Below, in pieces: positions 13,747 to 57,060 of a DNA stretch of 64,000 bases. The DNA is taken from assembly GCF_026013645.1 (NCBI RefSeq), contig NZ_CP110224.1, forward strand, positions 3,410,001 through 3,474,000, in the 5' to 3' direction. The stretch's first letter is position 1. Each line of letters opens with the position of its first letter. Source of the DNA: Virgibacillus natechei (GTDB taxonomy: Bacteria > Bacillota > Bacilli > Bacillales > Amphibacillaceae). Made by a program: the position numbers and the translations under genes. The notes beneath the pieces are model-generated. The model saw only the letters and a program-made list of their open reading frames with translations. It was not told where the DNA came from and did no database searches.

Positions 13747-14322
13747 TATTTATTGGCTGTTTTAAAGGTTGTTGTTTTTGACACAAAAGATATAGAAGAC
13801 GACGCAAGTGGTTGTTGATTTCCGCTGTGGACCGTTGCTTTCCGCGGGCACGGCTTCAGCCTTCGACGCACAGGACGTGCTAGTGCAGGTGTTGCGACAG
13901 GACGTCGCGAACTTAACCTGCCTCGAGAAACCCACTCTGCGGGGTCTTCAGACACGTGCTGTTCCCGCAGGAGTCAACGGTCCACAGCTCCAATCAACCA
14001 TTGGAAAAGTGCAGGCATTTGCTTAAATTAATCAAACCATATATTTTTAGCAGCAGAGAAACACAACACCCAGCGGAGGAAACACATGAAGACTCCTGCG
14101 GGAGGAAGGCATAGGTGAGACCCCGCAGTGCGTAGCACGAGGAGGCTCACCAGCCGCCCGCGGAAAGCGAAATGTGTTTCCGTAGCGCATCCCTGCTCTC
14201 AACCAGCGTTTGCAAAAGAATTGTCACTTGCGTCATCTTTTATATCAACCACGAAGATTTAAAAGCAACAATTGTTTTCGGTGGGACGAGTAAGCGCAGT
14301 TCCAATACTTACGAAAAGAGCC
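13747..14322 (+). repeat. MITE-like repeat family D, copy D1, carrying a hairpin module
   Basis: A composite of two GC-rich imperfect palindromes, D (about 13815-13995, TTTCCGCGGGCACGGCTTC to GTTCCCGCAGGAGTC) and D-prime (about 14065-14185), joined by a conserved spacer. The right end is TTACGAAAAGAGCC. Other copies lie at 40620-41180 and 56613-57060. A hairpin module is inserted at 13868-13921: stem GCAC/GTGC with loop AGGAC, TAGT, then outer GCAGGT/ACCTGC and inner GCGAC/GTCGC with loop AGGAC. No coding potential was found. Confidence 0.8.
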
Positions 14323-21683: not shown

Positions 21684-21747
21684 CGCGCACTCCCTCTTTT
21701 CTATCCTATATTTTAGTCGATACAGCTGTTTTTCGCAAAAGGAAAAA

Positions 21748-22133
21748 TGAACAAAAGCGCAAGCGCCCGTTTAGCAACGTACAAACTGCGCCCGCGCATC
21801 GCGGGTGGTTCAACGTTGCCACGCAAAGTGGCGGTTTTAGTTGAACCTCTACTGCCACAATGAGATAAAGGAAACATGCCCCTTCATAGGGGTATGCCGA
21901 CGTTGGGCGCAAAGCCCGGTTTTAGTCGGCCTTCCTTAAGACAAGGGAGTAGATGTTGACTTTCACCACAAGGGTATAAGTGCGACTAATCCTCTGGCAG
22001 AGCCAATCGGCAAGTCTTCTTTATCGTAGTGGAGGAGTGTGAAGTTTGATAGTTGCTGGGCGCTGGAGCTGGACGTGGATATTTCGGTAACTAAGTTATC
22101 CACAGCTTTTAAATTCTATAGTTTGCTATGCAA
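21748..22133 (+). repeat. Dispersed repeat family A, copy A3, carrying two hairpin modules
   Basis: Starts GAACAAAAGCGCAAGCGCCC and ends like the other copies. Compared with A1 and A2 it holds two extra modules. One is at 21791-21847: stem CCCGCG/CGCGGG, outer GGTTCAAC/GTTGAACC, inner GCCAC/GTGGC, loop GCAAA. The other is at 21877-21930: outer GCCGAC/GTCGGC, inner GGGC/GCCC, loop GCAAA. It also has the 60-base segment seen in A1. A DnaA box is at 22096-22104. Confidence 0.8.
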
Positions 22134-23380: not shown

Positions 23381-23454
23381 TTTGGTTCCCCTCTCCATCT
23401 GATCTATCATCAGTATGGTCAGGAGTAAATGAATTTAAACTAGTATTCTAGTAA

Positions 23455-23790
23455 AGGTTATTCAAAAAGTCACCAAATGATAAGCGGCGAATCTCTTCGT
23501 TGGCGCAGAGGAGCTTCTACTAAGACCGCCCACGTCCTGTGGGCAACGTAGAAGTCAACACTTCCTGTGCAAGTCCGCTACTCACGTATTAAAAGCATAC
23601 GCTCTATTCCTTGGAAAAGAAAGTCGCTTTTCCTGCGTGCGATGCAGGTTCGAGGAAGCTTTCCTTAGTGCTCAAAACTACGCCTCCTCGACCTTCGACG
23701 CACAGGACGTGCTAGTGTCGCCATTGTCACAGGACGTGACGTACTTAGGAGACCTTGCTTCTAATTCGGGAACTTTTTGAACACGCACTA
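23455..23790. repeat. MITE-like repeat family C, copy C1, with two hairpin modules
   Basis: Ends are inverted: TTCAAAAAGT at 23461 and ACTTTTTGAACACGCAC at the right, which touches the prmC stop. Two modules lie inside in opposite orientations. The minus-strand module at 23514-23570 has outer CTTCTAC/GTAGAAG and inner GCCCAC/GTGGGC with loop AGGAC. The plus-strand module at 23700-23753 has inner GTCAC/GTGAC with loop AGGAC. Other C copies are near 27955, 28968, 43944 and 47718. No coding capacity. Confidence 0.75.
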
Positions 23791-27954: not shown

Positions 27955-28180
27955 AGAGGTTGTTCAAAAAGTCCGGTAAAAATGACACATCGCAGGGGAA
28001 CTTTTGCTAAAACCGCCCACGTCCTGTGGGCAACGCAGAAGTCACCACATCCTGTGGAAGCTCGTTGGCTTGCTTTTCCGTTGTTCACGTATTAATTGCA
28101 TACGTTCCACTACTCAAGGCTATGCCGCCTCGAACTTCTCGGTCCTTTTTATCCTCCTTTTTGAACACGCACTTTTATCT
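27955..28180. repeat. MITE-like repeat family C, copy C2, with one hairpin module
   Basis: Left end GAGGTTGTTCAAAAAGTC, right end TTTTTGAACACGCAC. The minus-strand module at 28001-28057 has outer CTTCTGC/GCAAAAG (one mismatch), inner GCCCAC/GTGGGC with loop AGGAC, and a first hairpin CCAC/GTGG with loop AGGAT. Confidence 0.75.
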
Positions 28181-28805: not shown

Positions 28806-28900
28806 GTCTTTCCACTCCTTTTTGCCCTGAACCCCTTGTGAACAGAGTTATTGTAAGAGACGTCACAGGCACTACACCTTATCTAAACTCACATAAAATT

Positions 28901-28929: not shown

Positions 28930-28967
28930 TAGGATAGAAATATTTACCGAAAAGCTTCACTATTAGA

Positions 28968-29190
28968 GGTTGTTCAAAAAAGTCCGGTTAAAATGACATA
29001 TCGAAGGGACTTCTACTTAAACCGCCTACGTCAATAGATACCGTAGAAGTCACCACAACACTGCTAGAATCCCATTGGAACCGAAAACCATTGTGCGTTG
29101 AAAGTTCGAGGCAGCATAGTTTCGAGCACAAAGGGAACGTGTTCTTCTTTTCCAAGGAGCGGTTAACGGGTTTACTTGTGAGGTGCAAAA
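28968..29190. repeat. MITE-like repeat family C, copy C3 (degenerate)
   Basis: The left end GAGGTTGTTCAAAAAAGTCC matches the family. The minus-strand module at 29010-29060 keeps the outer CTTCTAC/GTAGAAG stem but its inner stem has decayed. The right end is eroded. The remaining DNA to 29517 is AT-rich with no gene recognised. Confidence 0.65.
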
Positions 29191-35171: not shown

Positions 35172-35717
35172 TCAATCACCACGCCTACTATTTATTTTTA
35201 TATTTTTTTACTTAAATCACACAAAGTTTATCGCTTTTTAACGGGCAAGGTCACCCAAATACGGCACAACCTTGAAAGGAATGCCGTTTTTCCTGCATGC
35301 GATATTATTCTGAGAGGTCTACCTTGTCAATCGCAACGCCGACATTAGCATGTCCTTGCTCCGAATGAATGCAATTTCTTTTATAAGGATTTATAAAAAA
35401 ACCAGGGTTCTAACTATTTCTTGGCGCTATGCCAAGCTTTTCTAATAAAGATTTAGTAATCTTTTATGGTAGGTTTTTTCTTACAGAATTGAAGAATTAT
35501 CGGAAGCTAGAATAGAAGATCGGTTTATTTAGAAAACTTGTTTAAGTATACATTATCATAACCAAGTTAGATATGTAGTAAACACATACTATGTTACGCT
35601 TTTACACACCAATATTCAACTCTATTTTAAAATTTCTAATAGAATTTTTAATAGAATTAGGAAGCCATCGACTATGATGGCTTCCTCTTCTATATATTTC
35701 CAGTGCTTTTTCAACAT
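35172..35717. other. Intergenic region between glpX and rho, with degraded repeats
   Basis: About 545 bases. A family C-like fragment (about 35260-35345, TTGTCAATCGCAACGCCGAC) and a family E-like fragment (about 35400-35470, TTTCTTGGCGCTATGCCAAG) can be seen, both decayed. The rho promoter and leader must lie here but were not pinned down. No gene. Confidence 0.5.
35659..35686 (-). terminator. Hairpin downstream of glpX, likely terminator
   Basis: AGGAAGCCATC and GATGGCTTCCT form a perfect stem; the tail on the minus strand (AATTCTATT) is only moderately T-rich. Confidence 0.6.
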
Positions 35718-40619: not shown

Positions 40620-41180
40620 GGTTGTTTTCTAAAAAATTGATGTTTTTGGCGTAATATTTATAAAAGACGAAGTAACTTGAAATTTAGGTTGATGCTTTTT
40701 AAACCGCTGCGGAAATACACTCCGCTTTCCGCGGGTGACCCGTGAGCCTCCTTGCCCCGGCAAGGGGTATGCCGACGTTGCCCGCAAAGGGCGGTTTTAG
40801 TTGGCCTTCATCATTTAACGCACTGCGGGGTCTCACTCTGGCCACTGTTCCCGCAGGAGTCTCCGTGTATTTCCTTCGCTGGTAAGATGCTTTTCAACTT
40901 CATCAAAATTGCTTGATTATATACTAAACATAGCCATGCACTATTATGATAGTTGATTGGAGCGAAGGACAGTCGACTCCTGCGGGAAAAGCACGAGTCT
41001 GAAGACCCCGCAGCGGCGGTCTTCCGCGGGGAGGCTGAAGCCGTGCCCGCGGAAAGCGACTGACCGGAGCGGAAATCAACAAGCACTTACGTCGTCTTTT
41101 ATATCAATTTGCGAAGAATTAAAAGCAACAAAGGTTTTCGGTGGGGCGAGTAATCGCAGTCCCAATGCTTACGAAAAGAG
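40620..41180 (-). repeat. MITE-like repeat family D, copy D2, with one hairpin module
   Basis: D-prime lies at about 40695-40885 and D at about 40955-41080. The right end TTACGAAAAGAGC matches D1. D-prime contains a plus-strand module at 40750-40805 (outer GCCGAC/GTTGGC with one wobble pair, inner GCCC/GGGC, loop GCAAA). The D half here has no module where D1 and D3 have one. Confidence 0.78.
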
Positions 41181-43658: not shown

Positions 43659-43943
43659 GGTACCGCGCTCCCTTTACTTATATAATAAGGCTTTTGCCTA
43701 CTTTAACCTTGTTTCTAAAACTTACTCTAGTATCTAACAATTATTACAGTTTAGCGGGCAGGCCGACTAAACCACGCATACGTCAATCGCAACTCCAACA
43801 TTTACACGTCCAATGCGTTCATTAATTCCAACTGAATAAAGATTTACTTTATCATAGTTGCACCTGTATTAAAACCATATCTTACATTATAAACAAAATT
43901 CAGTTGAATATGCTAGTTAGAAAACTTGGCAGTCGTTAAAGTG
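43659..43943. other. Intergenic stretch with degraded repeats
   Basis: A worn fragment at about 43752-43810 (AGGCCGACTAAACCACGC and TCAATCGCAACTCCAAC) resembles the family C module with a broken inner stem. The rest is AT-rich and should contain the rpoE promoter. No gene. Confidence 0.4.
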
Positions 43944-44225
43944 TGTGTTCAAAAAGGTGGATAAAAAGGACCGCGTCGGCTAAAGTCGCAGGCGTCCTAC
44001 CTGCAACGCCGACACTAGCACGTCCTGTGCGTCGAAAGTTCGAGGCGGCGTAGCTTTGAGCACTAAGGAAAGCTTCCTCGAACCTGCATCGCACGCAGGA
44101 AAAGCGAGCCAACGAGCTTCCACAGGATGTGGTGACTTCTGCGTTGCCCCCAGGACGTGGGCGATTTTAGCAGAAGTTCCCCTTCGATGTGTCATTTATA
44201 CCGGACTTTTTGAACATCCTCTTAA
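43944..44225. repeat. MITE-like repeat family C, copy C4, with two hairpin modules
   Basis: Ends GTGTGTTCAAAAAG and CTTTTTGAACATCCTCTTA. The minus-strand module at 43976-44031 has outer GTCGGC/GCCGAC and inner GCAGG/CCTGC with first hairpin GCAC/GTGC. The plus-strand module at 44120-44176 has outer CTTCTGC/GCAGAAG and inner GCCCCC/GTGGGC with loop AGGAC. It is the most symmetric C copy. Confidence 0.78.
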
Positions 44226-56612: not shown

Positions 56613-57060
56613 TTGGCTCTTTTCGTAAATATTATTGCTTTTAAACCTTCGTAGTTGTTATAAAATTCGACGTAACTGCTATGTTGATTTCCGCTCCGGG
56701 CAGTCGCTTTCCGCGGGCACGGCTTTGCCCTGGCAAAGGGTATGTCGACGTTGTTCGCAAAGAACGGTTTTAGTCGACCTTCCTTAGGAGAGTCTTGTGG
56801 GGTCTTCAGACTCGTGCTTTTCCCGCAGGAGTCGACTGCCCGGAGCTCCAATCAACCACCGGAAGAGTGCAAGCATTTGTTTAAATTAATCAAACAATAT
56901 ATTTTTAGAAGCAGAAAAACACAACACCCAGCGGAGGAAATACATGGAGACTCCGGCGGGAGGAAAGGCCTAGGCGAGACCCCGGAGTGCGTTAGCACGA
57001 GGAGGCTCACCAGCCGCCCGCGGAAAGCGGAATGTATTTCCGTAGCGAGTATAAAAAGCA
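56613..57060 (+). repeat. MITE-like repeat family D, copy D3, with one hairpin module
   Basis: The left end GGCTCTTTTCGTAA is the inverted complement of the right ends of D1 and D2. D lies at about 56690-56860 and D-prime at about 56925-57045. The module at 56724-56778 has first hairpin TTTGCC/GGCAAA, outer GTCGAC/GTCGAC, inner GTTC/GAAC and loop GCAAA. No terminator for argS is seen; the GC-rich hairpins may act as one. Confidence 0.8.

Follow-up and report, generated by a model that had tools for sequence, protein, structure and literature searches.

A Bacillaceae-1 two-hairpin module resides within several miniature repeats of Virgibacillus natechei

Results

Repeated modules in the window

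The window (the whole 64,000-nucleotide stretch of Virgibacillus natechei DNA analysed, contig NZ_CP110224.1, positions 3,410,001 to 3,474,000) carries eleven copies of a short two-hairpin module. The modules and the miniature repeats around them are collected in Table 1. The part of the window that was compared with related genomes holds the genes for Sua5, SpoIIR, PrmC and thymidine kinase. The first-pass annotation had listed the same number, ten of them clear and one decayed, on the strand where the loop reads AGGAC (the AGGAC strand below).

Table 1. Modules and host repeats in the window. The strand of module rows is that of the Rfam family and of the covariance model R1; the AGGAC strand is the opposite one. 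Scores are in bits; cut-off, Rfam gathering cut-off.
Feature	Positions	Strand	Remarks
Module, GTCCT class, host repeat B site 2	13867..13932	-	R1 77.8; Rfam 54.2
Host repeat C, an insert that does not align with G029 (same genus) at the orthologous place	21741..22131	-	blastn, limits approximate
Module, TTTGC (GCAAA), C right site	21791..21856	-	R1 57.3; Rfam 35.8 vs cut-off 35, E 0.0074
Module, TTTGC (GCAAA), C left site	21881..21941	-	R1 27.5; Rfam 30.1 (from 21879), below cut-off
MITE A, two inverted modules, flanks CTAGTA / CTAATA	23454..23787	.	ends by eye
Module 1 of MITE A 23454..23787, GTCCT	23504..23571	+	R1 72.5
Module 2 of MITE A 23454..23787, GTCCT	23699..23764	-	R1 74.1
MITE A, one module; missing at the G029 orthologous place	27956..28171	.
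Module in MITE A 27956..28171, GTCCT	27991..28058	+	Rfam 63.9
Decayed MITE A, decayed module near 29010	28966..29110	+	by eye, end approximate
Module, TTTGC (GCAAA), host B site 2	40754..40816	-	R1 27.2; Rfam 28.1, below cut-off
MITE A, two inverted modules, target duplication TTAAAG	43941..44221	.	ends approximate
Module in MITE A 43941..44221, GTCCT	43964..44031	+	R1 72.3
Module in MITE A 43941..44221, GTCCT	44119..44186	-	R1 74.4
Module, TTTGC (GCAAA), host B site 2	56728..56789	-	R1 29.3; no Rfam match at E <= 0.5

Layout, covariation and family identity of the module

The copies were parsed by structure. On the AGGAC strand a first hairpin is followed by a short link, an outer stem, GTT, an inner stem of 4-6 bp, the loop (AGGAC/AGGAT or GCAAA) and the second arm of the inner stem; a 7-letter stretch with a TTA end and the second arm of the outer stem complete the unit. 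The two-hairpin layout read from the letters is thus borne out. Covariation was measured in an alignment (A2) of 25 distinct copies from the source genome. Copies that exceed 75 nt because of inserts were left out of it, as were near-identical ones, GCAAA copies with short stems and several that are broken. In this alignment 92.9% of 410 cells are paired, and 15 of the 17 pairs show a change on both sides. Doubly changed cells number 82 as compared to 23.6 (sd 3.3) in shuffles, and none of 500 shuffles is as high on four of the five covariation measures. The fifth measure, further pair types, is at chance level (23 vs 20.8 in shuffles, 70 of the 500 reaching it). Pairing falls to 23-45% when the partners are slid by 1-3 columns. 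Among the unpaired letters, T, A, A and some others are invariant or nearly so across the 25 copies, and the junctions are alike in copies from five other genomes. The observation that stems change on both sides together while loops and junctions are kept is supported by these comparisons.

A covariance model (R1) was built from A2. It recovered 10 of the 11 window copies with E <= 3.1e-4; this recovery is partly by construction, because the modules at 27991, 44119, 23504 and 23699 belong to the training set and others are close kin of training copies. The copy near 29010 escapes R1 at E <= 1 and is visible as a decayed copy by eye.

Rfam family RF01690 (Bacillaceae-1 RNA) has the same two hairpins. 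It matches six window copies over the whole model, on the strand opposite to AGGAC, with 45.2-63.9 bits against the gathering cut-off of 35 bits. The repeated module is therefore the known Bacillaceae-1 family and not a new one, and the candidate of a new RNA family was rejected on this match. The earlier statement that no described Bacillaceae element has such a layout is wrong; the first-pass annotation had itself named identity with an existing Rfam family as a ground for refutation.

The suggestion that the element has been copied about the genome agrees with the genome-wide search. The source genome has at least 57 places above the RF01690 cut-off and at least 67 at E <= 0.001, both lower bounds with 150 of 609 candidates scored. 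Among 146 genomes of the family, 108 have an RF01690 match (107 above the cut-off) and 37 of 46 genera are represented. B. subtilis alone has one among 14 control genomes.

A second loop subfamily

Among 249 structural matches (overlaps of loci included) the loops on the Rfam strand are GTCCT in 172, TTTGC in 54 and other in 23, in agreement with the two loop subfamilies suspected earlier. The GCAAA window copies pass the 35-bit cut-off once, and barely, and this copy, at 21791, is absent from the output of the gathering run. The GCAAA-loop copies are a second subfamily, at or below the Rfam threshold, and the current RF01690 model misses it. The terminal loops of RF01690 are defined as RUCCU; such loops are present in most GTCCT-class modules and absent from the TTTGC class. 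The GCAAA class also occurs in Ornithinibacillus californiensis and Paucisalibacillus globulus, at five loci recovered by one exact pattern, in host C. The outer stems differ in these loci and are fully paired in four of the five, a compensated change at one place by descent that RNA function would predict too.

A further set of 133 distinct modules was selected by a scan that demanded T[AT][AG] and AA or AC junctions and listed loop types only; its junction counts are no evidence of conservation because the scan required those letters. The loops within one module tend to go together in this set. GGA is present in both loops in 87 of the 133 modules, in one only in 27 and in neither in 19.

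Modules sit inside miniature repeats A, B and C

The modules are nested in miniature repeats of at least three kinds, one of which is a MITE. Host A ends in TGTTCAAAA-type repeats and is flanked by a target duplication of 5-6 bp. Of the 72 flank letters of the 6-bp duplication in 12 elements with both ends, 62 agree, as compared to 41.1 (sd 3.25) when the flanks are re-paired at random, and none of 5000 re-pairings is as high. Six of these elements, of 153-154 bp, are without a module (by eye); the other six, at 216-418 bp, contain one or two. Host A thus combines the MITE features of terminal inverted repeats, target duplication, many copies and, judged from its length of 153-418 bp, no coding capacity. 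No transposase-coding full-length relative was seen in 20 stretches, but their length (341-901 bp) is insufficient to settle the matter.

Hosts B and C have at least 42 and at least 40 matches genome-wide, lower bounds with 40 of 67 candidates scored in each, and each has two module places. In B, the place CTCCTG|CGGGAG is filled in the copies at 3843235 and 3734424 and empty in 30 copies read; the second place, GAGG|AGGCT, is filled in 7 of the same 30 copies and empty in 23. The places in C are likewise filled or empty, the right one being empty in L118, L120, L126-L128 and L131 and filled in others. No letters are lost at three site types (two in B and one in A as compared with G029), and modules at other sites replace 2-10 nt. 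Gain and loss are not distinguished by these comparisons, because filled and empty sites come from different copies. When six module-free host loci and two orthologous stretches were searched with Rfam at the cut-off, only an rRNA was found. A 201-bp stretch of B had no match in phages, and a 391-bp stretch of A and a 401-bp stretch of C had none in plasmids. The first-pass annotation had described a unit of about 57 nt that is folded and copied; this part holds, with the refinement that the copies examined are not free-standing but parts of larger miniature repeats.

Module subfamilies are common to different hosts. The GGCCGAC/TTTGC (GCAAA) subfamily occurs in both B and C (in the window at 21881 and 40754), and therefore modules have passed between hosts somehow. 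Over 55 nt, three fully compensated pairs are the whole difference between the module at 2601279, in A, and that at 1113933, in B. Transfer of a module on its own, outside a host repeat, was never seen.

For eight host sites the predicted chance of a hairpin-loop position (on the better strand, at the best bond) is 0.98, 0.74, 0.50, 0.40, 0.32, 0.03, 0.00 and 0.00, with background means of 0.07-0.17. Some but not all host sites thus fall in predicted hairpin loops, and as a test of hairpin-loop targeting the outcome is mixed and gives no general rule.

In genome G028 (L164-L183) a near-identical module is present in the 20 copies fetched, with a host A that varies around it; GGA is missing from one hairpin loop in all 20. 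A still smaller hairpin of about 35-40 nt, GGGACTGCGCGTAAATGCTCGCCCCACCGAAAACATT-like and called element D here, is seen in the AC|AG of the inner loop of some modules (genome positions 14915, 900329, 2478093, 507704 and 3734424, for example). It is also seen in the host B copies at 172458, 2710974, 3480079 and 3385064 and in the host C of L296 and L300, with no target duplication by eye.

Comparison with sister genomes

Neither the C repeat at 21741-22131 nor the A repeat at 27956-28171 has a counterpart at its orthologous place in G029; judged from alignment coordinates, the same holds for G066. The A repeat at 23454-23787 lies opposite other, unaligned DNA in G029, and this place is uninformative. 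G029 has an A copy without a module at another place. Relative to this copy, the module at 23699-23764 adds about 58 bp and removes nothing, and the module near 23504 replaces seven nucleotides. The direction of change may be addition, which this alignment does not prove.

Base pairs on the two strands

On the Rfam strand G-U accounts for 2 of 381 standard pairs in the module as compared to 22 of 335 in 13 SAM riboswitches of the same genome (Fisher 3.6e-6, the cells not being independent, with the SAM structure from RNAalifold and one control family). The near lack of G-U on this strand hints at a DNA palindrome. On the AGGAC strand G-U is seen in 14 cells, mostly at stem ends. The compensated changes and the scarcity of G-U suit a palindrome maintained as DNA; an RNA on the AGGAC strand is also compatible with them.

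With respect to the replication fork, 31 of 43 non-A modules are co-oriented on the Rfam strand (p 0.005) and 10 of 24 A modules. This bias is not leaned on, because the terminus was assumed to be mid-genome (dnaA starts the contig) and the copies share hosts.

Discussion

On balance the data point to a hairpin module of miniature mobile repeats rather than to a free-standing small-RNA gene. RF01690 is filed as an RNA, whereas here the module lies within miniature repeats and its TTTGC/GCAAA class barely reaches the cut-off or falls short of it. Our leading explanation, tentative and given slightly less than an even chance, is a parasitic DNA hairpin unit of about 57-66 bp that is hosted by the MITE-like repeats A, B and C and transferred between them. 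The host repeats would be moved by transposases acting in trans, and a putative enzyme would copy the module, folded as a single strand, from one host to the next. The conserved loops and junctions may be what this putative enzyme, or another hairpin-binding factor, reads, and the stems would need only to stay Watson-Crick palindromes.

The module could instead be a CsrA-binding RNA, with its two AGGA loops, transcribed from the AGGAC strand, each occupying one site of a CsrA dimer and the abundance of copies providing a decoy. We regard this as distinctly unlikely. In the portion of PMC4333381 that bears on the family, Gardner and colleagues propose that the reverse complement of Bacillaceae-1 binds CsrA, and its discoverers are said to have been unsure of the strand. 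The modules with GGA in both loops agree with this proposal, whereas those with GGA in one loop or in neither, and the 20 copies of G028, do not. CsrA is present in 136 of the 146 family genomes and in the source genome, and the module occurs in 102 of the 136 genomes with CsrA; however, it also occurs in 6 of the 10 without it (17, 11, 7, 5, 1 and 1 matches), and CsrA was set aside as a required partner on this ground. Wobble pairs lean to the AGGAC strand, with 14 cells vs 2, or 23 vs 8 in a first count, and 24 vs 6 distinct stem events (p 0.0014). The preference is tentative because the lean is mainly at stem ends; within stems the numbers are about 6-9 vs 4, as read from the list of stem events. 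The strand of the flanking genes shows no bias among the 109 modules placed (29 with, 43 against and 37 mixed; 97 more of the 206 were unplaced). Against a decoy RNA also stands BSGatlas, which, in the part concerned with this family, calls eight B. subtilis Bacillaceae-1 structures absent from earlier annotation resources.

Plain upkeep of palindromes, in which replication copies one arm onto the other with no selection and modules spread only with their hosts, would account for paired changes without intermediates and for the scarcity of G-U on the Rfam strand. Copying of arms leaves unexplained the conservation of loops and junctions in the 25 copies and in five other genomes, and subfamilies shared by different hosts do not fit spread with hosts only; this explanation appears improbable. 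That a Y1/RAYT transposase, the mobiliser to which the first-pass annotation had pointed, moves the module as a REP-like element is very improbable. The source genome does have eight Y1 matches at seven places, and the inverted module pairs resemble REPINs. However, 12 of the 20 listed genomes without Y1 carry the family, G026 with 43 copies and G058 with 36 (most of the genomes being drafts). When about 1.5 kb on each side of the eight Y1 loci of the source genome was searched for repeats flanking the transposase gene, only L005 had module matches, on one side. The Y1/RAYT mobiliser was set aside on these two grounds.

The matches at L005 (2760-2828 and 2916-2978) belong to a C repeat about 0.9 kb from a RAYT-like gene, and this proximity is perhaps chance because C copies are many. 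Three Y1 genes of the source genome have nearly equal strong scores (163-residue frames), and there are further weaker, RAYT-like ones.

A bolder form of the parasitic hairpin unit can be put forward, although we consider it unlikely. Bacillaceae-1 would be no RNA gene but a hairpin DNA parasite of about 60 bp that lives on DNA parasites and is moved by a putative single-strand recombinase of Bacillaceae. Loops and junctions would be read and stems free to change; the unit would plug into unrelated miniature repeats, often at single-stranded turns, and would itself be a target of element D, with hairpins nested in hairpins as the outcome.

The 190-bp repeat of B. subtilis, which Kunst et al. 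reportedly described in 1997, is said to have about 10 copies with compensatory changes, an insert in some copies and an orientation bias to the replication fork. The likeness to the present module is drawn from these features, and B. subtilis carries RF01690. The bcr1-bcr18 repeats of the Bacillus cereus group are, in the descriptions taken from PMC3446304, intergenic, some of them MITE-like and some with conserved RNA-like structure, and the module is likened to them on that description; 84 of 165 and 62 of 155 bcr copies lie within an mRNA. GTAG- and CGTC-tagged REPs are small palindromes, often dimers, and CGTC REPs are without a dedicated transposase (sections of PMC3733652). According to the same sections, a CGTC REP, reported from other phyla, consists of one hairpin that has a stem of 8-9 bp and carries its tag at the foot, whereas here a two-hairpin module is nested in larger repeats. 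Among the papers listed by literature searches for nested or Bacillaceae mini-repeats, none was recognised as describing the present element. Bacillaceae-1 itself was tabled by Weinberg et al. 2010 (in the table consulted, PMC2864571) as a certain RNA and probably not cis-regulatory, and RF01690 is counted among the most abundant small-RNA families in a passage of the review PMC9029176. To this record are added the nesting in several host repeats, the GCAAA subfamily at or below the threshold and the near lack of G-U on the Rfam strand.

The label of Bacillaceae-1 as a small-RNA gene deserves to be tested again, and the case cautions against taking strong covariation as proof of a functional RNA. 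If the module is a DNA element, the RNA label would be wrong, the counts of small RNAs in Bacillaceae would be inflated, and work on its function would best be directed at the enzyme responsible for moving it.

Two weaker signals were seen elsewhere in the window. R1 has a weak match at 35239-35360 (13.6 bits, E 0.29), perhaps a decayed module with an insert. A sub-threshold match to the L31-Firmicutes ribosomal leader lies at 28815-28847 (27.9 bits vs a cut-off of 33.3).
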